Source: Mycobacterium sp. Root265 (lineage in GTDB: Bacteria; Actinomycetota; Actinomycetes; Mycobacteriales; Mycobacteriaceae). From it: a DNA stretch of 64,000 bases. Below, piece after piece: positions 40,981 through 58,844 of this stretch (its first letter is position 1; every line of letters starts with the position of its first letter). Made by a program: the position numbers and the translations under genes. The stretch lies in NCBI RefSeq assembly GCF_001428895.1, contig NZ_LMJA01000001.1:1150-65149 (forward strand), in the 5' to 3' direction. The notes beneath the pieces were generated by a model, which was not told the origin of the DNA, searched no databases, and saw only the letters and a program-made list of their open reading frames with translations.

Positions 40981-43596
<2,616 letters not shown>

Positions 43597-43687
43597 CTCC
43601 CTGAACCCCGATCCGGTGTGTGGGCTCAGTATCGACCGGCGGGGGGCACTGGGTCAGCCGATCGCCGACATGGACTGGCGCTCGGGG

Positions 43688-44875
43688 TCAGCCGAGCCGT
43701 TCGATGATGGTGGCGTTGGCCATGCCGCCGCCCTCACACATCGTCTGCAGGCCGTAGCGGGCCCCGCGCTGCTCCAGTGCATTGACCAAGGTGGTCATGA
43801 TGCGCGCGCCGCTCGCCCCCAGCGGGTGGCCGATGGCGATGGCGCCGCCGTTGACGTTCACCTTCGCCAGATCGGCACCGGTATCGGCGGCCCAGCTCAG
43901 CACGACCGGCGCGAAGGCCTCGTTCACCTCGAACAGGTCGATATCGGCCAGCGTCAGGCCTGCACGCCGCAGCACCTTCTCGGTGGCCGGGATGACGCCG
44001 GTCAGCATGTAGAGCGGATCGGAGCCCACCACGGTGGTGGTGTGGATCCGGGCCAGCGGACGCAGACCCAGCCGTTTGGCGGTCGCGCCGCTGGTGATCA
44101 TCACCGCGGCGCTGCCGTCGGACAGCGGCGACGAGTTGCCCGGGGTGATCTCCCAGTTGATCTGCGGGAAGCGAGCCGCGTACGCCTCGTTGTAGAACGC
44201 CGGCCGCAGCCCGGCCAGGGTCTCCACGGTGGTGCCGGGACGGATGATCTCATCGGTGCTCAGCCCGGCGATCGGTGCGAGTTCGGCGTTGAACAAGCCG
44301 GCCTTGGTGGCCGCCGCCGCCTTCTCGTGGCTGCTCGCCGAGAACTCGTCGAGCTGAACGCGCGACAGGTTCCACTTGGCGGCGATCAGTTCGGCGCTGA
44401 TGCCCTGCGGTACCAGGCCGTCGGGGTAGCGGGCGGCCATGTCCAGGCCGAACGGGTCGCTGCCGGGCAGTACCGAGGAGCCCATCGGCACCCGCGACAT
44501 CGACTCGACACCCGAAGCGATCACGATGTCGTAGGCCCCGGCGAGTACACCCTGGGCCGCGAAGCTGATGGCCTGCTGGCTGCTCCCGCACTGGCGGTCC
44601 ACCGTGGTGCCCGGCACCGACTCCGGGAATCCGGCGCCCAGCAGGGCATTCCGGGCAATGTTCACCGACTGATCGCCGACCTGTGTGACCGCGCCTGCGA
44701 TGACGTCGTCGACCAGGGCCGGGTCGACGCCGGTCCGTGCGATCAGCTCGCGGAGGCTGTGGGCCAGCAGATCGGCGGGCAGCACTCCGTGCAACGCACC
44801 GTTGGCCTTCCCCTTACCGACCGGTGTCCGGACGGCACCGACGATGACCGCGTCACGATCCGAGAATCCCGACAT
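43688..44875 (-). CDS. Acetyl-CoA C-acyltransferase (thiolase)
   Basis: A 395-residue thiolase. The nucleophile is Cys96 in VDRQCGSSQQ, followed by VNVNGGAIAIGHPLGASGAR with the catalytic His, and the second cysteine in MCEGGGMANA. It should cleave 3-ketoacyl-CoA in a degradation pathway (or condense two acyl-CoAs). GAGGAGC precedes the ATG by a few bases. It is divergent from an HxlR-type regulator with a palindrome between them. Confidence 0.92.
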   Translation of the reverse strand: MSGFSDRDAVIVGAVRTPVGKGKANGALHGVLPADLLAHSLRELIARTGVDPALVDDVIAGAVTQVGDQSVNIARNALLGAGFPESVPGTTVDRQCGSSQQAISFAAQGVLAGAYDIVIASGVESMSRVPMGSSVLPGSDPFGLDMAARYPDGLVPQGISAELIAAKWNLSRVQLDEFSASSHEKAAAATKAGLFNAELAPIAGLSTDEIIRPGTTVETLAGLRPAFYNEAYAARFPQINWEITPGNSSPLSDGSAAVMITSGATAKRLGLRPLARIHTTTVVGSDPLYMLTGVIPATEKVLRRAGLTLADIDLFEVNEAFAPVVLSWAADTGADLAKVNVNGGAIAIGHPLGASGARIMTTLVNALEQRGARYGLQTMCEGGGMANATIIERLG

Positions 44876-44971
44876 TTCTGCTCCTCAATAACTCGTCGCT
44901 GAGTACTGCTCTCTATACTTAGATGTAACACCTAGGTCTAGTTACAACAACCCAGCTTCGGAGTGATCTAC
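44876..44971. promoter_or_regulatory. Divergent thiolase/HxlR promoter region with palindrome
   Basis: TGTAAC (44924-44929) and GTTACA (44941-44946) are perfect inverted arms 11 bp apart, with an inner CCTAGG at 44931-44936. The position between two divergent start codons suggests an operator for the HxlR-type protein controlling both genes. AT-rich sequence at 44911-44922 is a candidate -10 area for the thiolase. Confidence 0.6.
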
Positions 44972-45469
44972 ATGACAGTGCTGCAGGGCCCGCTGGCCGA
45001 TCGTGACGCGTGGTCGGCCATCGGGGAGTGTCCGATCGAGAAGACGATGACCGTGGCGGGCCAGAAGTCGGCGATGCTGATCATGCGGGAGGCCTATTAC
45101 GGCACAACCCGATTCGACGATTTCTCCAAGCGGGTCGGCATCACCAAAGCCGCGACCTCGGCGCGGCTGTCCGAGCTCGTGAGCGCGGGTTTGCTGGAAA
45201 AGCGGCCCTACCGGGAATCCGGGCAGCGGGAGCGCCAGGAGTATGTGCTCACCCCGGCCGGCGTCGACTTCATGCCGGTGGTCTTCTCGATGTTCGAATG
45301 GGGCCGCAGGCATCTGCCCTACAACGGCCGGCTGCAGCTGACCCACCTCGGCTGCGATGCCGAGGCCCACGTCGAGATCGTTTGCGAAAAAGGGCATTCC
45401 GTGGGTTTTGCCGAGTTGGGGATGCGCCTGGTCCGCAGGGCCGGGGCACCCGCGACGGGTCAGGTGTAG
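44972..45469 (+). CDS. HxlR-family winged-helix regulator
   Basis: A 165-residue regulator. A winged helix (about 15-105) includes ECPIEKTMTVAGQKSAMLIMREAYYGTTRFDDFSKRVGITKAATSARLSELV, and QEYVLTPAGVDFMPVV is typical of HxlR proteins. The C-terminal 50 residues hold two cysteines (LGCDAEAHVEIVCEKGH), perhaps a metal or redox site. The ATG is chosen because GGAG lies about 8 nt upstream. An in-frame GTG at 44963 is the alternative. Likely regulator of the divergent thiolase gene. Confidence 0.85.
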   Translation: MTVLQGPLADRDAWSAIGECPIEKTMTVAGQKSAMLIMREAYYGTTRFDDFSKRVGITKAATSARLSELVSAGLLEKRPYRESGQRERQEYVLTPAGVDFMPVVFSMFEWGRRHLPYNGRLQLTHLGCDAEAHVEIVCEKGHSVGFAELGMRLVRRAGAPATGQV

Positions 45470-45591
45470 CCGCCCGCCGGCGACGGTTTCGGGTTATTGT
45501 CGGCCGACTTCCAGGCATTGCCGCCCGCGATATTGACAGATTCGTTAAAATTCGTCAGCTACGTCGATCAGGTGTACGGGGGGGCCCGCAC

Positions 45592-45636
45592 ATGGCGACG
45601 GATATTTCCGTGTCAAGAGAGGCCCCGGCAATATGA
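45592..45636 (+). CDS. Possible 14-codon leader ORF upstream of the acyltransferase
   Basis: ATG 45592 opens a short frame (MATDISVSREAPAI) whose TGA overlaps the acyltransferase ATG as ATGA. A run of seven G residues lies about 6 nt before it. The exact start-stop coupling suggests that translation of the peptide could deliver ribosomes to the main gene. Coding cannot be shown from so short a frame. Confidence 0.35.
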   Translation: MATDISVSREAPAI

Positions 45637-46976
45637 CGTACCCGGCTGACAACACGCTGGCATATATGGACCAGGGTTCCTACCTGGGTTTGCGGGCGCT
45701 TCGCCGCGGGCCGGTGATCCAGTACGTGTGGATCTACGAGCGCGGCGTCGACATGGACGGGCTGCGGCGGTTCCACCGCAATCTCGCAAACGGGCTGCTC
45801 GGCAGGCGGGTCGAACGCTCGTCGCTCCCGTTCGGGCGCCACCACTGGGTGTCCTCCGGTGAGCCGGGCGGTATCGACATCTCCGCGGCCGAGCGCCGCC
45901 GCGACGAGGTCTGGGATTTCGTCAACGAGCGCGCCGACGTGCCGGTGGACCCCGAGTACGGCCCGCCGTGGCATATCGGGGTTCAGCCACTCGTGGAAGG
46001 TGGCGCTGTGGTCACCCTGGTGGTGTCGCACACCGTCGCCGACGCCGGCGCCCTGATCGAATCGATCACGCACGCCGTCAACGGCACCGGCCGGGATCTC
46101 GACTACCCCGCTCCGCGGTCGCGCACCCGCGCGCAGGCGCTGCGGCAGGACGCCCGCACCACCGTGCGGGCGCTGCGCGACGTTCCGGCCGCGGCGCTGG
46201 GAGCGGTACGGATCGCCCGTGAGCAGTCTGCGGAACTGTCCGAATCGGCGAAGGCCGTCGCGCCCGTCTCCTCGGTACGGCACCCGCAGCAGGCGGTGCA
46301 CCTGCCGACCATCTCGGTGCGCGTCGACCAGGCCGAGTGGGAGGCCCGCGCCAAGGCGCTCGGTGGGTCCAGCAATGTGCTGCTGGCCGGCATCGCCGCG
46401 CGCGTCGGCGCCATCGTCGGGCGAGTCGACGCGGACGGCAAGGCCATGCTCTCGCTGCCGGTCAGCGAACGCGTCGACGGCGACACCCGGGGCAACGCAC
46501 TCAACACCATCACGGTGATGGCCGACGGGCGACGGGCGCCGGACGATTTCAGCGAGATCCGGGCCGGCATCAAGGCCGCGCTCACCGAACTGGCCGGCAA
46601 GCGCGAGTGGCTGCTGGCCCCGCTGCCGCTGGTCCCGTACTCCCCGAAATTCCTGCTGCGCCGCCTGGAGAAGCTGGTTCTCAAGGTCGGCAAGCCCATC
46701 GGGTCCTCCAACAGCGGCCCGCTGCCCGACGAGGTCAACCGCCCGGACGGGACCCCCGCGGACCTGTTCGTCGCGGGCTCGCCGGAGCCCGGGCTCACCG
46801 CAGGTGACCTGGAGCGGATGGGTGGCCGGATGCTGGTCGCCGCGGGCACCGTCGGGGGTGCGGTATGCATCTCGGTGGCGTCCTGGGAGCCCGGCGCTCC
46901 GAATACCAAAGAGGCCCTTATGCAATCGGTCAAGGAAGCCTTCTATGATTTCGATCTGACCGCGGAGATGGAGTAG
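45633..46976 (+). CDS. Condensation-type (PapA/WS-DGAT-like) acyltransferase
   Basis: A 447-residue protein of the CoA-dependent acyltransferase superfamily. The active-site motif appears as SHTVADAG (His133, Asp137), a variant of HHxxxDG. LPVSERVDGDTRGNALNTITV is the conserved late segment that in this family shapes the channel. It probably transfers an acyl group to a lipid alcohol, but donor and acceptor are unknown. No membrane segment is evident. A closely related copy at 40366 is a pseudogene. GAGAGG lies about 10 nt before the ATG and TTGACA at 45533-45538 is a -35 candidate. Confidence 0.8.
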   Translation: MTYPADNTLAYMDQGSYLGLRALRRGPVIQYVWIYERGVDMDGLRRFHRNLANGLLGRRVERSSLPFGRHHWVSSGEPGGIDISAAERRRDEVWDFVNERADVPVDPEYGPPWHIGVQPLVEGGAVVTLVVSHTVADAGALIESITHAVNGTGRDLDYPAPRSRTRAQALRQDARTTVRALRDVPAAALGAVRIAREQSAELSESAKAVAPVSSVRHPQQAVHLPTISVRVDQAEWEARAKALGGSSNVLLAGIAARVGAIVGRVDADGKAMLSLPVSERVDGDTRGNALNTITVMADGRRAPDDFSEIRAGIKAALTELAGKREWLLAPLPLVPYSPKFLLRRLEKLVLKVGKPIGSSNSGPLPDEVNRPDGTPADLFVAGSPEPGLTAGDLERMGGRMLVAAGTVGGAVCISVASWEPGAPNTKEALMQSVKEAFYDFDLTAEME

Positions 46977-47031
46977 CGCCCGCGGCCACGCACAATGCGA
47001 TCCCGCGCTACCTGTGATGGGATCGGACGCT

Positions 47032-50000
47032 ATGGGAATCAAAGTGGCGCTGGAGCACCGGACCACCTATACCTTCGACAGGTTGGTGGACGTGCACCCG
47101 CACGTGGTGCGGCTGCGTCCGGCCCCGCACTCACGGACCCCGATCGAGGCGTACTCGCTGCAGGTCGAACCGGCCGACCATTTCGTCAACTGGCAGCAGG
47201 ACGCCTTCGGTAACTTCGTGGCCCGGCTGGTGTTCCCGAACCGCGCCCGCAGCCTCAGCATCACCGTCGGGCTGATCGCCGACCTGAAGGTGATCAACCC
47301 GTTCGACTTCTTCATCGAGGAATGGGCGGAGAAGTTCCCCTTCGAATACCCCGAGGACCTGCTCGCCGACCTGGAGCCCTTCCTGCGGCCGGTCGACGAG
47401 GACGGCGTCGGGTCCGGTCCCGGTGACCTCACCAGGTCCTGGGTGCAGCATTTCTCCACCGCGCCGGGCACCCGCACGATCGACTTCCTGGTGAAGCTCA
47501 ACGCCGCCGTCCGGGCCGACGTGGGTTACAGCGTCCGGATGGAACCCGGCGTGCAGACACCGGATTTCACGCTGCAGACCGGGATCGGCTCCTGCCGTGA
47601 CTCGGCGTGGCTGATGGTCTCCATCCTGCGCCAGCTCGGCCTGGCGGCGCGCTTCGTCTCCGGCTACCTGGTGCAGCTGACCTCGGACGTCGAGGCGCTC
47701 GACGGCCCCTCCGGGCCGGCCGCCGACTTCACCGACCTGCACGCGTGGACCGAGGTCTACATTCCCGGCGCCGGTTGGATCGGCCTGGATCCCACGTCGG
47801 CCCTGTTCGCCGGCGAAGGCCACATCCCGCTGTCGGCGACCCCGCACCCCGCGTCCGCGGCGCCCATCACCGGTGCTGTCGGGCCGTGCGAATCGACGCT
47901 CGACTTCGCCAACATCGTGACCCGTATCCACGAGGATCCTCGGGTCACGCTGCCGTACACGCCCGAAGCGTGGAAGGCCATCAACGCCCTCGGCGCGCAG
48001 ATCGACGAACGTCTGGTTGCCGGTGACGTACGCCTGACCGTCGGCGGCGAACCCACTTTCGTGTCGATCGACAACCAGACCGACCCGGAATGGCTCACCA
48101 CCGCCGATGGCCCGCACAAGCGTGAGCGCGCTTCGGTGCTGGCCGAGCGGCTTCGCAAGGTGTGGGCGCCCAACGGCCTGGTGCAGCGCAGCCAGGGCAA
48201 GTGGTACCCGGGAGAACCGTTGCCGCGCTGGCAGATCGGCCTGATCTGGCGCACCGACGGTGAGCCGCTCTGGAACGATCCGACGTTGCTGGCAGACCCC
48301 TGGGCGGAGGCGAAGGCCGATGACGCGCCCTCCGATGCCGGCGCCCGCCTGCTCGGGTTCATCGCCGATGGGCTGGGACTGCCCGCCACCCAGGTGCGGG
48401 CCGCCTACGAGGACCCGCTGGAGCGTCTGGCCGCCGCGGTGCGTCGCCCCGCCGGGGATCCCGTCGCCACCGGCGACGACCTCACCGAGGATGACACCGC
48501 GCGGCGCGCCAAGCTGCTCGCCCGGCTCGACGAATCGACCGAGGAGCCCGCCGCCTACGTCCTGCCGCTGCACCGCAGGGACGACGAGTCCGGGTGGGCG
48601 AGCGCCGACTGGCAGCTGCGCCGCGGACGAATCGTATTGCTGGCCGGTGATTCCCCGGCCGGCCTGCGGCTGCCGCTGAACTCGATCAGCTGGCGGGCGC
48701 CACGGCCGGACTTCGATGCCGATCCGACCGCGCAGCGCGCCGCACTGCGCACCGGCGCGGTCGCCGACTCGCCGGCACCCGTGGAGGACGCCGATGAGGC
48801 CCCGACCACCGCGCTGGTCGTCGAGGTGCGCGACGGGGTGCTCTACGTCTATCTGCCGCCCACCACCGATCTGGACCATTTCGTCGAACTGGTGTCCCGG
48901 ATCGAGCAGGCCGCGGCCGCCATCGCCGTGCCGGTGGTCATCGAGGGCTACGGACCGCCGCGCGACGGGCGGATCACGTCGATGAGCGTCACCCCCGACC
49001 CCGGCGTCATCGAGGTCAATGTGGCGCCCACCAGCAGCTTCGCCGAGCAGAAGGCGCAGCTGGAGACGCTCTACGAGGAGGCCCGGCAAGCCAGGCTGTC
49101 CACGGAGGCGTTCGACGTGGACGGCACCCACGGCGGTACCGGCGGTGGCAACCACATCACCCTGGGCGGTGTCACACCCGCCGATTCGCCGATGCTGCGC
49201 CGTCCCGACCTGCTGGTGTCGATGCTGACCTACTGGCAGCGCCACCCCGCACTGTCGTATCTGTTCTCCGGCCGCTTCATCGGCACCACCTCCCAGGCCC
49301 CGCGGGTGGACGAGGGTCGCGCGGAATCGTTGTACGAGTTGGAGATCGCGTTCGCCGAGATCGCCCGGCTGGCAGAGGAAGACGCCGACACCGCCTGGAT
49401 CACCGACCGGGCGCTGCGCCATCTGCTCACCGATATCACCGGCAACACCCACCGCGCCGAATTCTGCATCGACAAGCTCTACAGCCCGGACAGTCCCACC
49501 GGCCGGCTCGGCCTGCTGGAACTGCGCGGGTTCGAGATGCCGCCGCATCATCAAATGGCGATGGTGCAGTCGCTGCTGGTGCGTTCGCTGATCTCGTGGT
49601 TCTGGGACGAGCCGCTCAAGATGCCGCTGATTCGGCACGGCGACAACCTGCACGGGCGATACCTTCTGCCGCACTTCATCATTCAAGACATCGCCGATGT
49701 GGCGGCCGACCTGCGGGCGCACGGCGTGAAGTTCGATACCAGCTGGCTGGACCCGTTCACCGAGTTCCGGTTCCCGCGCATCGGTACCGCGGTGTTCGAC
49801 GGCGTCGAGATCGAACTGCGCGGTGCCATCGAACCCTGGAACGTGCTCGGTGAGGAGTCCGCCGGAACCGGGACCGCCCGCTACGTCGATTCCTCGGTGG
49901 AGCGCATCCAGGTGCGCCTCGTCGGCGCCGACCGGCACCGCTACATCGTCACCGCGAACGGTCACCCGATACCGCTGCTGGCCACCGACAAGACCGACAT

Positions 50001-50346
50001 CCAGGTCGGCGGCGTGCGGTACCGGGCCTGGCAGCCGCCCAGCGCGCTGCACCCGACCATCACCGTCGACGGTCCGCTGCGTTTCGAACTCGTCGACACC
50101 ATGACCGGCACATCGCGCGGTGGCTGCACCTATCACGTCGCGCACCCCGGGGGCCGGGCCTATGACAGCCCGCCGGTCAACGCGGTGGAGGCCGAGTCCC
50201 GGCGTGGGCGCCGCTTCGAGGCGACGGGATTCACACCCGGACGTGTGGATATGTCGGATCTGCGGGAGAAGCAGGCGCGCCAGTCGACCGACACGGGCGC
50301 GCCCGGCATCCTGGACCTGCGCCGGGTGCGTACCGTTCTGCGTTGA
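47032..50346 (+). CDS. Transglutaminase-like/DUF2126 putative amidoligase (Rv2566-like)
   Basis: A 1104-residue two-part enzyme. Residues 1-275 are a bacterial transglutaminase-like domain with its N-terminal beta domain and an intact triad (C188 in GSCRDSAW, H237 in DLHAWTE, D253 in GLDP). Residues about 320-1090 match DUF2126, a putative glutamine-synthetase-like amidoligase (VGGEPTFVSIDNQTDPEW, HRAEFCIDKLYSP, LELRGFEMPPHHQMAMVQ). It may both cleave and form amide bonds on a peptide. The ATG at 47032 (MGIKVALEH) is preferred over the GTG at 47014. The stop overlaps the next ATG by one base. First of four co-oriented genes. Confidence 0.87.
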   Translation: MGIKVALEHRTTYTFDRLVDVHPHVVRLRPAPHSRTPIEAYSLQVEPADHFVNWQQDAFGNFVARLVFPNRARSLSITVGLIADLKVINPFDFFIEEWAEKFPFEYPEDLLADLEPFLRPVDEDGVGSGPGDLTRSWVQHFSTAPGTRTIDFLVKLNAAVRADVGYSVRMEPGVQTPDFTLQTGIGSCRDSAWLMVSILRQLGLAARFVSGYLVQLTSDVEALDGPSGPAADFTDLHAWTEVYIPGAGWIGLDPTSALFAGEGHIPLSATPHPASAAPITGAVGPCESTLDFANIVTRIHEDPRVTLPYTPEAWKAINALGAQIDERLVAGDVRLTVGGEPTFVSIDNQTDPEWLTTADGPHKRERASVLAERLRKVWAPNGLVQRSQGKWYPGEPLPRWQIGLIWRTDGEPLWNDPTLLADPWAEAKADDAPSDAGARLLGFIADGLGLPATQVRAAYEDPLERLAAAVRRPAGDPVATGDDLTEDDTARRAKLLARLDESTEEPAAYVLPLHRRDDESGWASADWQLRRGRIVLLAGDSPAGLRLPLNSISWRAPRPDFDADPTAQRAALRTGAVADSPAPVEDADEAPTTALVVEVRDGVLYVYLPPTTDLDHFVELVSRIEQAAAAIAVPVVIEGYGPPRDGRITSMSVTPDPGVIEVNVAPTSSFAEQKAQLETLYEEARQARLSTEAFDVDGTHGGTGGGNHITLGGVTPADSPMLRRPDLLVSMLTYWQRHPALSYLFSGRFIGTTSQAPRVDEGRAESLYELEIAFAEIARLAEEDADTAWITDRALRHLLTDITGNTHRAEFCIDKLYSPDSPTGRLGLLELRGFEMPPHHQMAMVQSLLVRSLISWFWDEPLKMPLIRHGDNLHGRYLLPHFIIQDIADVAADLRAHGVKFDTSWLDPFTEFRFPRIGTAVFDGVEIELRGAIEPWNVLGEESAGTGTARYVDSSVERIQVRLVGADRHRYIVTANGHPIPLLATDKTDIQVGGVRYRAWQPPSALHPTITVDGPLRFELVDTMTGTSRGGCTYHVAHPGGRAYDSPPVNAVEAESRRGRRFEATGFTPGRVDMSDLREKQARQSTDTGAPGILDLRRVRTVLR

Positions 50347-52994
50347 TGGTTCTTCGCACCGGCTCGATGGAGCCCAACTCCGGGCTCTCCGGCGCGCCGC
50401 CGCGCACCGTCGACGTGCTCGCCGGCTACCGGGCCAGGCGCACCCAGCAGGCGCTGTTCGATGTCCGGGGCATGCGGGGGGCCGGGTACGACGAGTTCAT
50501 CGACGCCACCGGCACCATCCGCCCGGCGTGGCAGGAGCTCGCCGAATGCGTCGGGGACCGGGGTCCCGACGGGCTGGACCGGCTGCGCGGCACGGTCCGC
50601 AACCTCGTCGATGACGACGGCATCACCTTCGTACACGTCGATCAGGACGCACTCACCGATGACGCGGTGGCCGAGCCGTGGCGCCTCGACGGGCTGCCGC
50701 TGCTGCTGTCCTCCGCAGACTGGGACACCCTGGAAGCCGGCCTGGTGCAGCGCTCCCGGCTGCTCGACGCCGTGCTGACCGACCTCTACAGCGAACGCAA
50801 GTCGATCACCAGCGGGGCGCTGCCCGCACAGCTGCTGTTCGCCCACCCGGCCTACGTGCGTGCCGCGCACGGTATCGAGGTACCGGGGCGCCACCAGCTG
50901 TTCCTGCACGGCTGCGATGTCAGCCGGGCCTCCGACGGCACCTTCCGCGCCAACGCCGACTGGACCCAGGCGCCCTCCGGTGCCGGCTACGCCCTGGCCG
51001 GCCGGCGCGTCATCGCGCACGCCGCACCCGATCTGTACGAGCGCATCGCGCCGCGCCCGGTGTCCCCGTGGGCGCAGGCGCTGCGGCTGGCCCTCATCGA
51101 TGCCGCGCCCGAGGCTGCCGAGGAGCCGGTGGTGGTGGTGCTGAGTCCCGGCACCCAGTCCGAGACCGCGTTCGACCAGGCCTATCTGGCCAATGTGCTG
51201 GGCTTCCCGTTGGTGGAGAGCGCTGATCTGGTGGTGCGCGACGGCACCCTGTGGATGCGGTCGCTGGGCACCCTGAAGCGCGTCGATGTGGTGCTGCGCC
51301 GGGTCGACGCCGCCTACGTCGACCCCCTCGATCTGCGCGCCGACTCACGCCTTGGCGTGGTCGGACTCGTCGAGGTGCTGCGCCGCGGCGCCGTCACCGT
51401 GGTCAACACCCTGGGCAGCGGGATCCTGGAAAGCCCGGGGCTGCTTCATTTCCTGCCCCGGCTGACCGAGATGCTGGTGGGGGAGACCCCGACATTGGCG
51501 TCCCCGCAGACCTACTGGGGCGGCACCGATGTGGAGCGTTCCCATCTGCTGGCCAACCTGTCCACGCTGCTGATCAAACCGGCCACCGGTGGTCACACGA
51601 TCGTCGGTCCGACGCTCACCGTGGCCGACCGTGAACTGCTGGCCGCCCGGATCAGTGCCCATCCGTGGCGGTGGGTGGGCCAGGAACTCCCGCAATTCTC
51701 CTCGGCGCCAACCGATTACTATCCCGGCGGGGTGTCGGCAGCCGATGTCGGCATCCGGCTGTTCACCGTCGCCCAGCGCGGCGGTTACGCGCCGCTGATC
51801 GGCGGGCTGGGGTTCCTGCCCGCCCCCGGGAACGCCGCCTACACCCTGGATACCGTTGCCGCCAAGGATGTCTGGGTGCGCACCCCGGACCGGGCCAAGG
51901 CGATCCCGACCCCGGCGGTCGACCTGCCGGTCATGACGCCGAGCCCGACCCGTGCCGTGAGCTCGCCGCGTGTGCTGTCCGATCTGTTCTGGCTGGGCCG
52001 CTACGCCGAGCGTGCCGAGCACATGGCCCGACTGCTCACCGTCACCCGCGAGCGCTACCACGAATACCGGTACCGCCAGGACATGGAGGAGAGCCAGTGC
52101 GTGCCGGTGCTGTTGGGTGCCATCGGCTCGATCACCGGAACCGATACCGGCGCGAGCGATGACGACCACGAGGCGATCGCGGTGGCGCCCAGCACACTCT
52201 GGGCGCTGACCGCCGACCGGCGCCGTCCCGGCTCGCTGGCGCAATCGGTGGAACGGCTGGGTCTGGCGGCCAGGGGTGTCCGCGACCAAATGTCCAACGA
52301 CACCTGGATGGTGCTGGCCGCCGTGGAACGCGCCGTCGTCCAGCGGTACGGCGCCCCACCGGAATCGCAGGCGGCCGGGGACGCCTACCTGCTGACCGCG
52401 CAGTCCCAGACGCTGGCCGGGATGTTGGCGCTGTCGGGGATGGCCGCCGAGTCGATGGTGCAGGACATCGGCTGGACCATGATGGACGTCGGCAAGCGGA
52501 TCGAGCGTGGACTCGGGCTGACCGCACTGCTGCGGGCCACGCTGACCACGGTGCGACGGCCAGGAGCCGAACAGACCGTCACCGAGTCCATGCTGGTGGC
52601 CTGTGAATCCTCGGTGATCTACCGGCGCCGCACGCTGGGCAAGGTCAGCGTGTCGGCGATCGCGGACCTGGTGCTCTTCGACGAGGAGAACCCCAGATCG
52701 CTGGTGTTCCAACTGGAACGGCTGCGGGCGAACCTGAAACGGCTGCCGTCGTCGTCGGGTTCCTCACGGCCGGAACGCTGGGCCGACGAGATCGCCGCCA
52801 CCTTACGCCGCGTCGACCCGGCCGATCTGGAAACCGTCGGATCCGACGGCCGCCGAACCGAACTCGTGGAACTGCTCGATCGTCTGCACGCCGACCTGCG
52901 GGAGCTGTCCAACCTGATCACCGCCGCCCACCTGTCCCTGCCGACCGGCATCCAGCCGCTGTGGGGCCCCGATGAGCGCAGGCTGCTGCCGTGA
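50346..52994 (+). CDS. Circularly permuted ATP-grasp plus alpha-E domain protein (Rv2567-like)
   Basis: An 882-residue protein. The N-terminal part (about 35-500) is a circularly permuted ATP-grasp domain (LLDAVLTDLYSERKSITSGALPAQL, RVDVVLRRVDAAYVDPLDLR, TLLIKPATGGHTIVGPTL). The C-terminal part from about 537 is an alpha-E domain (LSDLFWLGRYAERAEHMARLL). ATP-grasp enzymes activate a carboxylate by phosphorylation and join it to an amine. It begins at TGATG with the preceding gene and ends at GTGA with the next, so the three are tightly coupled. Confidence 0.87.
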   Translation: MVLRTGSMEPNSGLSGAPPRTVDVLAGYRARRTQQALFDVRGMRGAGYDEFIDATGTIRPAWQELAECVGDRGPDGLDRLRGTVRNLVDDDGITFVHVDQDALTDDAVAEPWRLDGLPLLLSSADWDTLEAGLVQRSRLLDAVLTDLYSERKSITSGALPAQLLFAHPAYVRAAHGIEVPGRHQLFLHGCDVSRASDGTFRANADWTQAPSGAGYALAGRRVIAHAAPDLYERIAPRPVSPWAQALRLALIDAAPEAAEEPVVVVLSPGTQSETAFDQAYLANVLGFPLVESADLVVRDGTLWMRSLGTLKRVDVVLRRVDAAYVDPLDLRADSRLGVVGLVEVLRRGAVTVVNTLGSGILESPGLLHFLPRLTEMLVGETPTLASPQTYWGGTDVERSHLLANLSTLLIKPATGGHTIVGPTLTVADRELLAARISAHPWRWVGQELPQFSSAPTDYYPGGVSAADVGIRLFTVAQRGGYAPLIGGLGFLPAPGNAAYTLDTVAAKDVWVRTPDRAKAIPTPAVDLPVMTPSPTRAVSSPRVLSDLFWLGRYAERAEHMARLLTVTRERYHEYRYRQDMEESQCVPVLLGAIGSITGTDTGASDDDHEAIAVAPSTLWALTADRRRPGSLAQSVERLGLAARGVRDQMSNDTWMVLAAVERAVVQRYGAPPESQAAGDAYLLTAQSQTLAGMLALSGMAAESMVQDIGWTMMDVGKRIERGLGLTALLRATLTTVRRPGAEQTVTESMLVACESSVIYRRRTLGKVSVSAIADLVLFDEENPRSLVFQLERLRANLKRLPSSSGSSRPERWADEIAATLRRVDPADLETVGSDGRRTELVELLDRLHADLRELSNLITAAHLSLPTGIQPLWGPDERRLLP

Positions 52995-53893
52995 CACGTA
53001 CCTACGAGATCACCCACCGCACCACCTACCGGTACTCCGACGATGTCACCAGCTCCTACGGCCGGGGCTTCCTGACGCCGCGGGAAACCGACACCCAACG
53101 CTGCCTGTCCCACGAACTGGTGATCGACCCGGACACCACGGACAGCACCACCAGCCGCGACGTCTACGGAAATCTCAGCTCCTACTTCCACGTCACCGAG
53201 CGGCACCGCACGCTGATCGTCACCAGCCGGTCGATCGTCGAGGTCGACCCGCCGGCCCCCGAGCTCTACGGCGGCGGTTCGGCACGCGCCCCGTGGGAGA
53301 TCGCCCGGCCGGTGGGAGCGGACGGCGCGCTGGCCACCGAGTTCACCCTCGACCTGGCGTCCGCGGAGATCACCGACGCGGTACGCGACTATGCGGCACC
53401 GAGTTTCACCCCGGAGCGGCCGCTGATCGAGGTGCTGCGCGATCTGAACTCCCGCATCAACAACGACTTCACCTACCGCTCCGGGTCGACCACGGTGTCC
53501 ACCCGGGTGTCCGAGGTGCTGGCCGCCCGGGAGGGTGTCTGCCAGGACTTCGCCCGGCTGGCGATCGCCTGCCTGCGTGCCAATGGACTCGCCGCCAGCT
53601 ATGTGTCGGGCTACCTGGCCACCGACCCGCCGCCCGGACGGGAGCGGATGGTCGGGGTGGACGCCACCCACGCCTGGGCCTCGGTGTGGACCCCGCAGAA
53701 CCAGTGGCTGGGGCTGGATCCCACCAACGACCAGATGGTCGACGAACGCTATATCGTGGTCGGTTTCGGCCGCGACTACGCCGACGTCCCGCCGCTGCGC
53801 GGCATCATCTATACAGACTCGGAGAGTAGCGTGATCGAGGTCTCCGTCGACGTCGCGCCGTATGTGACCGGCCCGCCGTCCAGCGTGGTTTAG
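52991..53893 (+). CDS. Transglutaminase-like protein (Rv2569c-like)
   Basis: A 300-residue protein with the N-terminal beta domain (TYEITHRTTYRYSDDVTSSYGRGFLTPRE) and a transglutaminase/peptidase core whose triad is intact: C184 in GVCQDFARLA, H227 in ATHAWASVW, D243 in LGLDPTND. It is likely an amide-cleaving or amide-transferring partner of the two ligases upstream. The GTG start overlaps the ATP-grasp stop. No signal peptide or membrane helix, so it acts in the cytosol. Confidence 0.88.
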   Translation: MTRTYEITHRTTYRYSDDVTSSYGRGFLTPRETDTQRCLSHELVIDPDTTDSTTSRDVYGNLSSYFHVTERHRTLIVTSRSIVEVDPPAPELYGGGSARAPWEIARPVGADGALATEFTLDLASAEITDAVRDYAAPSFTPERPLIEVLRDLNSRINNDFTYRSGSTTVSTRVSEVLAAREGVCQDFARLAIACLRANGLAASYVSGYLATDPPPGRERMVGVDATHAWASVWTPQNQWLGLDPTNDQMVDERYIVVGFGRDYADVPPLRGIIYTDSESSVIEVSVDVAPYVTGPPSSVV

Positions 53894-53960
53894 CCGCGAG
53901 CCGCACGGGGCACGTTCAAGCGGTCGCGGATCTGGCCGCGTTATAGGGGAAGAGACGGAC

Positions 53961-55016
53961 ATGCGGGATTTCAACTGCCCAAATTGCGGACAGCGGTTGG
54001 CGTTCGAGAATTCGAAGTGCCTGTCGTGCGGTTCCAGGCTGGGTTTCTCGCTCGACGATATGGCCCTGCTGGTGATCGCGCCCGAGGAGGAGAGCGAGCA
54101 CGCGGGTGCGGTCGATGAGCAGCAGTACCGGCTGTGCGCGAATCTCCATCTGGCCGAATGCAACTGGTTGGTGGAGAAGGGGCCCATCGTCAAGCTGTGC
54201 GCATCGTGCGCGCTGACCCGTACCCGGCCGCACGACAACGACAGAGATGCGTTGGCCAAGTTCGCCAGTGCGGAGAAAGCCAAGCGCCGGGTGATCGCCG
54301 AGCTGCACGAGCTGAAGCTGCCGATCATCGGCCGGGATGAGGACCCACAGTTCGGGCTGGCCTTCGACCTGCTGAGCAGTGTGCAGGAGAAGGTCTTCAC
54401 CGGGCACGCCGACGGTGTGATCACACTCGACCTCGCCGAAGGCGATGACGTGCACCGCGAGCAGCTGCGCGTCGCGATGGAGGAGCCCTACCGCACCCTG
54501 CTGGGGCACTTCCGCCACGAGCTGGGGCACTACTACTTCTACCGGCTGGTCAGCCCGTCGCAGGACTACCTCACGCGCTTCAACGAGCTGTTCGGCGATC
54601 CCGACCTCGATTACCAGGCCGCGCTGGACCGGCATTACACCGAGGGTGCACCGGCGGGCTGGAAGAGCGATTTCGTCTCCTCCTACGCGACCATGCACCC
54701 CGCCGAGGACTGGGCCGAGACCTTCGCGCACTATCTGCACATCCGCGACACGCTGGACACCGCAGCCGCCTTCAGCCTCGCCCCGGCCGGCGCCACCTTC
54801 GACCGGCGGGCGCTGGGCCCCAGCGGATTCGACACCATCATCGAGATGTGGTTGCCGTTGTCCTGGGCGTTGAACATGGTGAACCGTTCGATGGGCCGCG
54901 ATGACCTGTACCCGTTCGTGCTGCCCGCGGCGGTGCTGGAGAAGATGCGCTTCATCCACACCGTCATCGACGAGATCACCTCGTCGCCGACGAAGCTGGC
55001 CGCGGTCAGCGGCTGA
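53961..55016 (+). CDS. Zinc-ribbon metallopeptidase (Rv2568c-like)
   Basis: A 351-residue putative zinc peptidase. It begins with a rubredoxin-like zinc ribbon (C6, C9, C20, C23), a second Cys set (C59, C67, C80, C83), and a peptidase centre HFRHELGHYYF (HELGH at 186-190) with a downstream acidic EDWAETFAHYLH that can supply a third ligand. It follows the transglutaminase gene by 67 bp with its own ribosome site (GGAAGAG) and a possible TATAGG -10, so it may have an internal promoter. It completes the peptide-modification group. Its 3' end overlaps the convergent reductase by 11 nt. Confidence 0.85.
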   Translation: MRDFNCPNCGQRLAFENSKCLSCGSRLGFSLDDMALLVIAPEEESEHAGAVDEQQYRLCANLHLAECNWLVEKGPIVKLCASCALTRTRPHDNDRDALAKFASAEKAKRRVIAELHELKLPIIGRDEDPQFGLAFDLLSSVQEKVFTGHADGVITLDLAEGDDVHREQLRVAMEEPYRTLLGHFRHELGHYYFYRLVSPSQDYLTRFNELFGDPDLDYQAALDRHYTEGAPAGWKSDFVSSYATMHPAEDWAETFAHYLHIRDTLDTAAAFSLAPAGATFDRRALGPSGFDTIIEMWLPLSWALNMVNRSMGRDDLYPFVLPAAVLEKMRFIHTVIDEITSSPTKLAAVSG

Positions 55017-56025
55017 GCAGGCTCGCCGCGGTGGCGGTCACCGCATCGGCTGCCGGACGCGGACGCCAGCCGAGTTGCTCGACGGCCTTGGCGGCCGACA
55101 CCTGTTTGGGTGGCCCGAGCAGACCGGCGAACACCTCCAGCTCCGGCCGCTCGGCGGCGGCGGCCCGGATCTCGTCGTCGGAGGCCTCGGCGACCGGTAC
55201 CTGCGCGGCGGCGTCACCGAGGCGCTCGCGCAGGGTGGCCGCGATCTCGGGCAGCGTCATCGCCGCACCGGCAGCGGCCAGATAGCGCTGCCCGGCCGCC
55301 ACCGGCGAGGTCATGGCCCGGATATGCAGGTCGGCCACATCGCGGACGTCGACGACCGCGAACGAGGCGCGCGGCAGCGGTGAGGGTCGGCCCGACAGCA
55401 GCATCGCGATGATGCCGACCGAACTCGACAGGTTCGATCCGAGCGCGGGGCCGAACACCCCTACGGGGTTGATGACCGTCAGCTCGGGGGCACCGGGGTG
55501 CTCGGCCGCGAACTCCCACGCCGCCCGCTCGGCGAGCGTCTTCGACAGCACGTAGGGGCTGTTGTCCTGGGCCGGGTCGGTCCAATCCGATTCGTCGTAG
55601 GGCAGTCCGGACGGTTTCGGGCTGTAGCCGATCGCGGCGAACGACGACGTCAGGACCACCCTGCGCACCCCGTGCCGGGCCGCGGCGCGCAGCACCCGCA
55701 GCGTGCCGTCCCGCGCAGGTCCGATGAGTTCCCCCGCATCCTCGGGTTGCTTCGGCGGGAAGGGCGAGGCCATGTGCAGCACGTACTCGGCGCCGGACAC
55801 CGCGTCGTCCCAGCCGTCGTCGGCCGTCAGATCGGCGATCGCGAAGCTCAGCGCGGAGACATCGGCACCGGCCCCGACCAGTGCCTCGGTGAGCTCATCG
55901 CGCCGGCCTGCCGACCGCACCGTGGTGCGTACCCGCTGACCCGACCCGAGAAGCTGCAGAATCGTGTGCGCGGCAAGGAATCCGGACCCTCCGGTGACAA
56001 GAATGGGGGAAGTGTCATCGGCCAT
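55006..56025 (-). CDS. NAD(P)-dependent epimerase/dihydroflavonol-reductase-like SDR
   Basis: A 339-residue extended SDR. The nucleotide motif is ILVTGGSGFLAAHTILQLL, and the catalytic YVLSKTLAE gives Tyr-x-x-x-Lys, with LTSSFAAIGY before it. It should reduce a carbonyl or similar group. It starts within the last 11 nt of the MerR gene, so the two are coupled, suggesting the MerR protein controls it. Confidence 0.87.
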   Translation of the reverse strand: MADDTSPILVTGGSGFLAAHTILQLLGSGQRVRTTVRSAGRRDELTEALVGAGADVSALSFAIADLTADDGWDDAVSGAEYVLHMASPFPPKQPEDAGELIGPARDGTLRVLRAAARHGVRRVVLTSSFAAIGYSPKPSGLPYDESDWTDPAQDNSPYVLSKTLAERAAWEFAAEHPGAPELTVINPVGVFGPALGSNLSSSVGIIAMLLSGRPSPLPRASFAVVDVRDVADLHIRAMTSPVAAGQRYLAAAGAAMTLPEIAATLRERLGDAAAQVPVAEASDDEIRAAAAERPELEVFAGLLGPPKQVSAAKAVEQLGWRPRPAADAVTATAASLLSR

Positions 56026-56491
56026 CGGTGGCCTCCTGGTTCAGTAGTCGGTTGCCCAACTCGACGATGGTCGGGATGAGGCGTTGTTCTTCGGCGTCGT
56101 CGCCGTCGCACCGGGCCTGCCACAGCGCGGCCTTGGCCGCGACATAGCGCCGCCGCACCTGCAGCCGGGCGATCTCGTCGCCCAGCCGCTGCGCGTGGTC
56201 GGCGAAAAGGCGCTGCTGCGCATCCACCGCATCGCCGTCCCGCATGTTGGCCACATAGGACCGCATGTCCTGCACCGACATTCCGGTGCCGCGCAGGCAG
56301 GCCAGAGATTCCACGGTGGCCACCAGGTCCGGTGGGAACCGGCGATGGCCGCTGCTGTCATCGCGGGGCACCGGGGCGATCAGCCCGATGCGCTCGTAGT
56401 AGCGCAACGCGGATTCGCTCAGCCCGGTGCGCCGGGCCACCTGCTGGATGGTGAGATCGGCGGTCACCGGTTCGGACAGGTTGATGGCCAT
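56015..56491 (-). CDS. MerR-family regulator
   Basis: A 158-residue regulator with the N-terminal MerR helix-turn-helix (TIQQVARRTGLSESALRYYERIGLIAPVPRD) and a coiled-coil dimerisation helix (about 85-125). No cysteine metal-binding pattern is visible in the effector region; the only C-terminal Cys is in QARCDGDD. It is the first gene of a two-gene unit with the reductase. Its own promoter has the classical MerR layout and an operator palindrome. Confidence 0.88.
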   Translation of the reverse strand: MAINLSEPVTADLTIQQVARRTGLSESALRYYERIGLIAPVPRDDSSGHRRFPPDLVATVESLACLRGTGMSVQDMRSYVANMRDGDAVDAQQRLFADHAQRLGDEIARLQVRRRYVAAKAALWQARCDGDDAEEQRLIPTIVELGNRLLNQEATDGR

Positions 56492-56497
56492 GGCACC

Positions 56498-56528
56498 ACT
56501 CTGCCGAACCTGAAGCGCTTCAAGTCAA
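56498..56528 (-). promoter_or_regulatory. MerR-type promoter and operator
   Basis: On the minus strand TTGACT (56528-56523) and CAGAGT (56503-56498) are separated by 19 bp, the long spacer typical of MerR-controlled promoters. ACCTGAAGCGCTTCAAGT at 56508-56525 is an 18-bp near-perfect palindrome (one mismatched pair) within the spacer. The -10 ends 6 nt before the merR ATG, so the transcript is probably leaderless. Confidence 0.75.
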
Positions 56529-56616
56529 GCCTCGCCGGGCAACGGGGCGATCACGATGGCGCGCCGGGGCATGTCGCAACGCCGATTCCGGCGCCGCTGT
56601 TTCTAGGATCGCCCGC

Positions 56617-57450
56617 GTGACTGATCGCTACGGCTCCGACATCCTGGCCACGAACCCGCACGCGCGTACGCGCGTGCGCTCGGTCGAACATCCGGCCGAC
56701 AAGGGACTGGTCGTCGAGGACCCGTCCAGTGGTTTCGTCGGCGCGGTGGTGCGTATCGAGAGCGGCCGGGTGGACCTGGAAGACCGCAACCGCCGGGTCC
56801 GGTCCTTCCCATTGGGGCCCGGCTTCCTGGTCGAGGGCAAACCGGTCATCCTGGTCAAGCCGAAGGTGGTGGCCGCGACGGCCCGCACGGCCTCGGGTTC
56901 GGTGGCGGTGTCCGGCGCCAAGGCCAGGGTCGCACTGGCCAGCCGCATCTACGTGGAGGGCCGCCACGATGCCGAGCTGGTCGAACAGGTGTGGGGCGCG
57001 GATCTGCGCATCGAGGGTGTCGTCGTCGAATACCTGGGCGGGGTCGACGACCTGAGCGCCATCGTGGCCGAGTTCCAGCCCGGTCCCGGCCGCCGGCTCG
57101 GGGTGCTGGTCGACCACCTGGTCACCGGCTCCAAGGAATCCAAGATCGCCGACGCCGTCCGGCGCGGACCCGGCGGGGAGAACACCCTGGTGGTCGGCCA
57201 TCCCTACATCGATATCTGGCAGGCGGTCAAACCGGCGCGGCTGGGATTGAAGCAGTGGCCGGTGATCCCGCGCGGGATCGACTGGAAGCACGGCATCTGC
57301 GAGGCGCTGGGCTGGCCGCACGCCACCCAGGCCGACATCGCGGGCGCCTGGCAGCGGATCAGGGGCCGGGTGCGGGACTGGAACGACCTGGAGCCCGCGC
57401 TGATCGGCCGGGTCGAGGAGCTCATCGACTTCGTTACGGCACCAGCCTGA
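56617..57450 (+). CDS. DUF3097 family protein, possible Toprim-like fold
   Basis: A 277-residue protein that I recognise as the actinobacterial DUF3097 family. Residues about 110-150 (RIYVEGRHDAELVEQVWG, then VVVEYLGGVDDLSA) resemble a Toprim-type acidic centre, with conserved Glu and Asp, and VLVDHLVTGSKESK follows. That would suit a nucleic-acid enzyme, but this is a structural guess. TAGGAT (56604-56609) ends 7 nt before the GTG start. It precedes rarA by 56 bp. Confidence 0.75.
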   Translation: MTDRYGSDILATNPHARTRVRSVEHPADKGLVVEDPSSGFVGAVVRIESGRVDLEDRNRRVRSFPLGPGFLVEGKPVILVKPKVVAATARTASGSVAVSGAKARVALASRIYVEGRHDAELVEQVWGADLRIEGVVVEYLGGVDDLSAIVAEFQPGPGRRLGVLVDHLVTGSKESKIADAVRRGPGGENTLVVGHPYIDIWQAVKPARLGLKQWPVIPRGIDWKHGICEALGWPHATQADIAGAWQRIRGRVRDWNDLEPALIGRVEELIDFVTAPA

Positions 57451-57506
57451 TCGATTACGGCACCGGCCTGACAGAGTCCGTCGTCTCGGCGTGGTAAGCA
57501 GAACTC

Positions 57507-58844
57507 GTGTCAGACAGTTTGTTCGACATGCCGGGCGATGCGCCGGCCGCTGCCGATATGCCGACGGGCGCCAGCCCGCTGGCCGTGCGCATGCGCCCGG
57601 CCAGCCTCGACGACGTCGTCGGCCAGCAGCATCTGCTCAAACCCGGCTCACCGCTGCGCCGCCTCGTGGAGGGCTCCGGCGCGGCCAGCGTCATCCTGTA
57701 CGGGCCGCCCGGCACCGGTAAGACCACACTGGCCTCGCTGATCTCCGGTGCCACCGGGCGCCGGTTCGAGGCGCTGTCGGCCCTGAGCGCCGGGGTCAAG
57801 GAAGTCCGGGCGGTGATCGAGACGGCGCGCCACGCGGCCATCCGGGGCCAGCAGACCGTGCTGTTCATCGACGAGGTGCACCGGTTCTCCAAGACCCAGC
57901 AGGACGCGCTGCTGGCGGCCGTGGAGAACCGGATCGTGCTGCTGGTCGCGGCGACCACGGAGAACCCGTCGTTCTCGGTGGTGGCCCCCCTGCTCAGCCG
58001 GTCACTGATCCTGCAGCTGCAGCCGTTGGGCGCCGATGACATCCGCGCCGTGCTGCAGCGGGCCGCCGCCGATGAGCGTGGTCTCGCCGGCAAGGTCGCC
58101 ATCGACGACGATGCGCTGGAGCTGCTGGTCAAACTGTCGGCCGGGGATGCCCGCCGCGCGCTGACCGCGCTGGAGGTCGCCGCCGAAACCTCCGGCGGCG
58201 CGGGCGGCACGGTCACCGTCGAGGTGGTGGAGCAGTCGCTGGATCAGGCGGCGGTGCGCTATGACCGCGACGGCGATCAGCACTACGACGTCATCAGCGC
58301 CTTCATCAAGTCGGTGCGCGGCTCGGATGTGGATGCCGCGCTGCACTACCTGGCCCGGATGCTGACCGCGGGGGAGGATCCGCGCTTCCTGGCCCGCCGG
58401 CTGGTGATCCTGGCCAGCGAGGACATCGGGATGGCCGATCCGATGGCGCTGCAGACCGCGGTCGCCGCGGCGCAGACAGTGGCGCTGATCGGGATGCCGG
58501 AGGCGCAGCTGACGCTGGCGCACGCGACGGTGCATCTGGCGACCGCGCCGAAGTCGAACGCAGTGACGACCGCCCTCGGCGCGGCGATGGCGGATATCCG
58601 GGCGGGCAAGGCCGGCCTGGTGCCTGCGCACCTGCGTGACGGGCACTATTCGGGGGCTCAGAAGCTGGGCAACGCGGTCGGCTACAAATATGCCCATGAC
58701 GCGCCGGGTGGTGTTGCCGCCCAACAGTATCCGCCCGATGAGCTGGTGGGTGTCGACTACTATCAGCCCACCAGCTACGGCGCCGAGCGGGAGATCGCGA
58801 GCCGGTTGGAGAAGTTGCGGGCCATCATCCGGCGCAAGCGCTAG
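57507..58844 (+). CDS. rarA: Replication-associated recombination ATPase RarA (MgsA-type)
   Basis: A 445-residue AAA+ protein. Walker A is [11 protein letters not shown], Walker B is [19 protein letters not shown], sensor 1 is [12 protein letters not shown], and the C-terminal tetramerisation region includes [25 protein letters not shown]. It acts at stalled replication forks with the clamp-loader-like fold. The GTG start has TAAGCA 6 nt upstream as an imperfect -10. M. tuberculosis counterpart: Rv2559c. Confidence 0.92.

Follow-up and report, generated by a model that had tools for sequence, protein, structure and literature searches.

Does the compact gene cluster at positions 47032-55016 of the window, the 64,000-nucleotide stretch of Mycobacterium sp. 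Root265 DNA analysed here (host genome, 6.67 Mb), form a complete system for building and trimming peptides, or a part of one? An earlier sequence-only reading had placed four co-oriented, tightly packed genes there, and both their coordinates and their domain assignments were recovered with Pfam: a transglutaminase-like domain fused to DUF2126 (ORF1), a circularly permuted ATP-grasp fused to Alpha-E (ORF2), a stand-alone transglutaminase-like protein (ORF3), and a zinc-ribbon metallopeptidase (ORF4). All characteristic domains of the predicted ATP-grasp/Alpha-E/transglutaminase/DUF2126 system are encoded together in these overlapping genes. Comparison among relatives leads to a tentative proposal, held at just under even confidence, that this cluster supplies the accessory half of a system split over two loci, which makes and removes amide bonds, probably isopeptide ones, on peptides or proteins.

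ORF2 (50346..52994, plus strand) comprises an ATP-grasp (50697-51809; CP_ATPgrasp_1/2, 395.5/405.6 bits) and Alpha-E (51966-52931; 230.3 bits). It is similar to the solved ATP-grasp 3n6x (E 7.3e-63), to which intact ATP-grasp copies align over their whole length. The ExN metal motif is lost in the window protein (P0002), where residues 204-207 (codons 50952..50963, plus strand) read N-A-D-W in place of the L-E-D-N of intact relatives. When ATP-grasps were sorted by the presence or absence of AlphaE in their own reading frame, independently of the motif, ExN was found in 0/107 distinct AlphaE-fused proteins (81 of these loci being close mycobacterial relatives) and in 98/100 whose AlphaE is encoded by a gene of its own, L114 and L137 being unreadable fragments; eight more copies cut by a locus edge likewise lack it. 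A column comparison covered 32 intact copies, whose selection by the motif itself fixes their ExN score in advance, 28 fused rows from mycobacteria (the window and every third of the named loci), and 27 further fused rows, six from the same genus (one genome twice) and the rest from other genera or phyla. Glu158, Asn160, and Asp425 were lost in all 55 fused rows. The Glu158 column holds Ala in 28/28 mycobacterial rows and Ala, Gly, or Ser in 27/27 others, and the Asn160 column Trp in 28/28 and Arg, Trp, Tyr, Lys, or His in 27/27. Asp425, the invariant Asp of HVDLRPF, is Gly in 28/28 mycobacterial rows and Asp in 0/27 others. Two of the glycines of the loop are gapped in all 28 mycobacterial rows and in 22 and 21 of the 27 others, and Arg446 is replaced by Tyr or Phe in 28/28. 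The motif of Escherichia coli Gss, R316-x-D318...E330-x-N332, agrees by eye with the ATP-grasp motifs in spacing to within one residue, and its D318, E330, and N332 presumably bind Mg. Judged from these alignments, the window ATP-grasp is probably a pseudoenzyme, a reading held with good confidence. The sequence-only reading had counted two ATP-using ligase folds; membership of the ATP-grasp family stands, while ExN, the glycine-rich loop, and the HVDLRPF Asp are gone from this copy. Loss of conserved nucleotide-binding residues, which that reading had itself named as telling against its proposal, is seen by sequence alignment in this one of the four proteins.

An intact ATP-grasp is encoded with Alpha-E and a transglutaminase on another contig of the same genome (L113:5420-9062; G000:C27:281419-285061), a gene set equal to the Anbu operon minus Anbu. 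In a survey of 101 genomes of the family, in which counts were made by eye, shared ancestry was uncorrected, and the fused state was checked directly in fetched loci only, the intact ATP-grasp (at least 75% identity) was present in 63 genomes. The window-type class (29-36% identity) was present in 54, and the intact paralogue occurred in all 54 of these and in 9 of the 47 genomes lacking the window-type protein. Both halves stand in one cluster on an Enterobacter plasmid (L133), in Burkholderia cenocepacia (L135), in Halomonas (L137, divergently arranged), and in three genomes of the actinobacterial family f31 (L378-L380), with the intact ATP-grasp of L378 about 1.4 kb away from the cluster. 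Moreover, all 12 DUF2126-bearing genomes among 296 of the phylum have at least two Alpha-E matches. The four genes had been taken as a complete system; the 54/54 nesting and the six two-half clusters suggest instead that the window cluster is one half of a two-locus system. The plasmid that carries the L133 cluster, from Enterobacter roggenkampii, is 90 kb in size, and IS6-family transposase genes flank the cluster at distances of up to about 5 kb on either side. In M. tuberculosis, Rv2411c presumably corresponds to the intact ATP-grasp. Transposon insertions in Rv2411c were over-represented, indicating a growth advantage (PMC3854130, Table 6).

The claimed conservation in mycobacteria is borne out by 80 named loci, kept out of 185 ORF2 relatives, which share the core genes. 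The nearest named relatives of ORF2 come from Mycolicibacterium sp. P9-22 (96% identity) and M. frederiksbergense (95%), so that the host is most likely an environmental Mycolicibacterium. A second transglutaminase is present in 80/80 and the metallopeptidase in 79/80, the remaining one being cut by a contig edge. DUF2126 is present in 63/80, absent despite a full flank in 16, and at an edge in one; it was found nowhere in the 12 whole genomes searched among those 16 loci (L072, L073, L102, and L112 excluded). DUF2126 is therefore a detachable module, the constant core in the named loci being ATP-grasp-AlphaE, transglutaminase, and metallopeptidase. Gene order varies, the transglutaminase/peptidase pair being inverted in L117 and L124, and in the edge-truncated locus L094 DUF2126 lies in two pieces on two contigs. 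Beyond mycobacteria, the system is present in several bacterial phyla among the loci examined. The DUF2126 frame of L092 (Mycolicibacterium litorale F4) is just 493 aa long, by frameshift or assembly error.

ORF1 (47032..50346, plus strand) joins a transglutaminase-like region (47047-47793; Bact_transglu_N and Transglut_core) to DUF2126 (47884-50322; 1164.8 bits). Its ATG lies at 47032, with a further open GTG upstream at 47014; ORF2 may start at TTG 50343 or at ATG 50346, the latter giving a 1-nt overlap. DUF2126 has been grouped with the Pup-ligase superfamily in the study from which the name glutamine synthetase (GS)-like superfamily comes (PMC2588565). Comparison with hhalign detected no similarity to GCS2 or Pup_ligase (shallow profiles, Neff 2.5) and no signal against the ATP-grasp profile, and scans of the PDB and Pfam for GS-like relatives were empty; the AlphaFold model had a mean pLDDT of 47.5. 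Of the GS-like DUF2126 first described, the domain is confirmed and the fold is putative, resting on the literature. Some genomes of the family carry a further ATP-grasp class (38-46% identity) in which GCS2, of the glutamate-cysteine ligase family, is fused to a circularly permuted ATP-grasp without Alpha-E (6/6 proteins scanned). Among 18 fetched (L364-L377, L381-L383), ExN was read in 12, GxH in one, and the motif was unreadable in five. This class was considered as an exception to the association of fusion with degeneracy and ruled out, its fusion being to GCS2 and not to AlphaE. As it joins a GS-superfamily ligase to an intact ATP-grasp, it suggests by analogy that DUF2126 and the intact ATP-grasp may act in sequence.

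The other enzymes of the cluster appear well preserved. Active-site residues were counted in one best match per locus, paralogues included, over 131 loci for ORF3, 127 for ORF1, and 92 for ORF4. ORF3 (52991..53893, plus strand), which overlaps ORF2 by 4 nt, carries Bact_transglu_N and Transglut_core, has relatives 6g49 and 3isr in the PDB, and retains Cys184-His227-Asp243. The intact triad reported in the first reading is nearly invariant (Cys 131/131, His 130/131, Asp 129/131). The ORF1 residues Cys194, His243, and Asp259 (P0001 numbering) were found in 127, 124, and 123 of 127 loci, and the rows that fall short are gapped or unaligned. ORF4 (53961..55016, plus strand), 67 nt after ORF3, combines Zn_ribbon_DZR_6 with Peptidase_Mx (339.2 bits). 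Its description as a zinc-ribbon HELGH peptidase (HELGH at 54516-54530) agrees with HExxH in 92/92 loci and zinc-ribbon Cys checked in 92/92. Rv2569c is presumably the counterpart of ORF3, as the earlier reading has it. The Rv2569c protein has been published as a cell-wall serine protease insensitive to E-64 and N-ethylmaleimide (PMC11081392). That claim is hard to square with a Cys-His-Asp triad that is invariant in the ORF3 family as aligned here, and the assignment deserves a second look.

A possible substrate for such enzymes is seen at the end of the intact ATP-grasp, which in the host genome has a glutamine-rich C-terminal tail. A run of at least four Gln (up to 17) occurs in 61 of 64 intact copies from 63 family genomes, the copies without one being those of G007 and G037 and the second copy of G008. 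In the family sample 30% of the tail Gln codons are CAA (205/673), compared with 43/446 in the gene body (30 of these loci) and 57/602 in window genes. Because this share exceeds the roughly 10% of gene body and window genes, it argues for selection acting on the protein sequence of the tail. CAG-repeat slippage as the origin of the tail is disfavoured by the same CAA count in the family sample; in family f16, from the same phylum, the codons (CAA 7/85) do not speak against it. QQQQ was found in 0/290 control gene calls from 400 kb of the host genome and in 5/1028 from the window and the 80 named loci, all five at the C-terminus of the cluster metallopeptidase; the control calls came from a simple codon-position script, and the counts are approximate. 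Metallopeptidase tails of QQQQ or QQQQQ plus one residue occur in 7/94 rows (L061, L082, L083, L088, L106, L118, L128), and window ORF4 has no C-terminal QQQQ.

In family f16, the intact ATP-grasp copies seen all lack the tail. There, among the best 20 of 30 loci (L305-L324, one cut), the operon transglutaminase ends in at least two Gln in 16 of 19 complete copies, the three misses belonging to genus g62. In the f16 control, QQ fell within the last six residues of 2/258 genes, one of them the operon transglutaminase, and QQQ anywhere in 10/258. A Gln tail on some component in every lineage was considered and rejected, none being present on the ends seen in genera g8 and g62 and in loci of families f7 and f53. 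Since lineages without it exist, the system as such can do without the tail. C-terminal Gln runs nevertheless recur on system components within Actinomycetota and are candidate transglutaminase acyl donors. It is conceivable, if unlikely, that the system encodes its own acyl donor as a polyGln tail whose host component differs by lineage, with transglutaminases deamidating or transamidating it and ligases building on it; the tail would then be a scaffold or self-tag, and the degenerate ATP-grasp a regulatory partner.

The glutamine tails also recall Pup, which has a C-terminal Gln. The system might accordingly tag proteins for degradation in parallel to pupylation (PafA/Dop and Pup), with which it would have a predicted GS-superfamily ligase and a C-terminal glutamine in common, the metallopeptidase taking the place of Anbu. 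The placement of DUF2126 with the Pup ligases by others (PMC2588565) and the proteasome-like Anbu carried by sister operons (PMC5666114, PMC6376114) speak for such a role. However, the gene neighbourhoods hold no small conserved ORF resembling Pup according to PMC2588565, and Yersinia Anbu is described as having neither activity nor a specific complex (PMC6376114). Moreover, the accessory enzymes differ from those of pupylation, the shallow DUF2126 and Pup_ligase profiles show no similarity, and no tag turned up, small ORFs not having been surveyed. Tagging is held to be quite unlikely.

The GCS2-ATP-grasp fusions bear on another explanation, namely that the system performs small-molecule chemistry, yielding a gamma-glutamyl-type peptide or acid-amine product released by the amide-cleaving enzymes, perhaps in nitrogen scavenging. 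Glutathione and gamma-glutamylated amine pathways are the models, glutathione-type synthesis using a GCS-family ligase and an ATP-grasp. These fusions, found in the same bacterial family, recall such two-step synthesis and mark a GS-superfamily ligase and a circularly permuted ATP-grasp as a natural pair; they therefore strengthen this explanation slightly, leaving it somewhat unlikely. The window cluster differs from glutathione-type synthesis in that DUF2126 has no detectable GCS2 similarity and transglutaminases and a peptidase are added. Links to nitrogen point the same way. The B. cenocepacia cluster is NtrC-dependent (PMC5491218) and lies beside urea and nitrate genes, the cluster domains are associated with urea metabolism in marine metagenomes (PMC3597751), and an Acidithiobacillus plasmid stretch carries glnL-ntrC, a permease, and an aliphatic amidase. 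Among seven fetched plasmid-collection loci, all four proteobacterial ones with an intact ATP-grasp have, upstream of that gene, a sigma54-like site with no more than one mismatch, at about 350 bp in L133, 50 bp in L134, and 90 bp in L137; in L135 the site lies about 50 bp upstream for one of several starts and inside the gene for another. Mononucleotide shuffles give 0.41 expected sites per 20-kb strand, and L134 and L136 hold others elsewhere. Against small-molecule chemistry, the immediate neighbours scanned include no transporter or oxidase that would obviously belong to an amine pathway, and C-terminal Gln tails on proteins would be unexpected for a purely small-molecule pathway.

In mycobacteria the nitrogen link was not recovered. 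GlnR control of the window cluster was dropped, the 251 bases upstream of ORF1 holding no match to the fuller form; the loose form AC-n9-A[CT] has one match there, inside the preceding gene. The word "transglutaminase" is missing from the main text (supplements excluded) of two M. smegmatis nitrogen papers. The conserved feature upstream of ORF1 is a different element, TGTGATGGGAT (47013..47023, plus strand), which ends 8 nt before the ATG. Its pattern, TG[TG]G.TG[AG]GAT (TGTGnTGGGAT), occurs in 60 of the 63 named mycobacterial loci where DUF2126 was matched; the three without it (L088, L094, L109) have only a partial ORF1. The element is possibly the -10 region of a leaderless promoter.

In the proposed two-locus system, whose domain chemistry is that known for the families, DUF2126 and the intact ATP-grasp of G000:C27 would be the ATP-dependent ligases, likely working sequentially. 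The degenerate ATP-grasp would be kept for binding or regulation jointly with Alpha-E, the transglutaminase-like domains would act on glutamine or isopeptide bonds by deamidation, transamidation, or hydrolysis, and the product would be trimmed by the metallopeptidase. We infer that the two loci share one substrate, and likewise in which direction and sequence the reactions run and that the Gln tails serve as substrate or scaffold. The synthesis and trimming of a peptide put forward by the sequence-only reading agrees in its general idea with published prediction, with the reservation that one of its two ligases looks dead.

Several observations weigh against this proposal. The nesting count is uncorrected for shared descent, no intact ATP-grasp was found within about 20 kb in L136, L138, and L139, and L134 has DUF2126 beside the intact ATP-grasp with no fused copy seen. 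DUF2126, a predicted ligase, is missing at 16/80 mycobacterial loci that keep the other genes and from the whole genomes searched among them, and its profile comparisons were empty. No mycobacterial counterpart of the Burkholderia nitrogen control was found in the ORF1 upstream scan or the M. smegmatis literature, a point that tells against the small-molecule explanation as well. The AlphaFold models, built from shallow mycobacterial alignments only, are poor (mean pLDDT 49.5 and 47.5), and nothing is shown in three dimensions; with the first model (49.5), Foldseek returned only 3n6x below E 0.001 (E 7.4e-11). Outside mycobacteria Arg446 is kept in 8/27 fused rows and the loop Lys in 10/27. 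Since the residues replacing ExN are themselves conserved and Asp145, Arg148, Lys465, and Asp466 are mostly kept, an altered instead of a lost activity of the fused ATP-grasp is possible. Taken further, ORF2 would have rebuilt its metal site and kept its ligase activity, and the cluster would be self-sufficient, as the conserved substitutes and the retained window Asp192, Arg195, Lys508, Asp509, and PSG turn might indicate. However, mycobacteria have lost ExN, the glycine loop, the HVDLRPF Asp, and the GGLTR Arg all together, and the loop Lys is Arg in 15/28 mycobacterial rows, so that a self-sufficient cluster appears rather improbable.

The outline is not new, both the set of domains and the proposed peptide synthesis or tagging having been published before. 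Iyer et al. in 2009 reportedly predicted peptide-synthesis systems of this kind, as papers citing that work relate. Such ATP-grasp/Alpha-E/transglutaminase/GS-like systems, with the same domains and the same general prediction as the window cluster, were proposed in 2008, with Rv2566 as a transglutaminase-ligase fusion (Iyer et al., 2008, PMC2588565). That account, in its accessible text, mentions neither the degenerate ATP-grasp nor the two-locus split nor the Gln tails, and differs in these from the present findings. No mention of the three was found in the literature searched; Iyer 2009, subscription journals, and supplements lay outside the search, and priority is uncertain. The Anbu operon (PMC5666114, PMC6376114) shares ATP-grasp, Alpha-E, and transglutaminase and resembles the intact half on G000:C27, and the related Yersinia ATP-grasp liberates phosphate from ATP (PMC6376114). 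In contrast, the window cluster has Peptidase_Mx and DUF2126 instead of Anbu, with Alpha-E fused to the degenerate ATP-grasp, and none of the 12 proteins of the window scanned with Pfam (40981 to 58844) has an Anbu domain. E. coli Gss (glutathionylspermidine synthetase/amidase) shows by eye the same order of D...ExN and K-P-x-x-G and a similar ligase and amidase logic, whereas hhalign gave no significant match between it and the ATP-grasp, and ExN is lost in the window protein. The Rlo operon of Pseudomonas aeruginosa also brings together ATP-grasp, transglutaminase-like, and peptidase genes (PMC12239564); unlike those of the window, its ATP-grasp is compared to RimK, its transglutaminase is membrane-bound and inactive, and its peptidase is a secreted aspartic one. 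Elsewhere in the window, 40981-43596 (minus strand) encodes a protein of 871 aa that begins with a flavin monooxygenase-like part and carries an alpha/beta hydrolase at its C-terminus.

The system has been predicted since 2008-2009, yet no paper giving its substrate was found, in agreement with the first reading, which knew of no established one. The comparison presented here shows which ATP-grasp is likely alive, and hence which operon to assay; a failed assay of the window ATP-grasp on its own may have a structural cause. The C-terminal Gln tails offer a place to look for the product by mass spectrometry.

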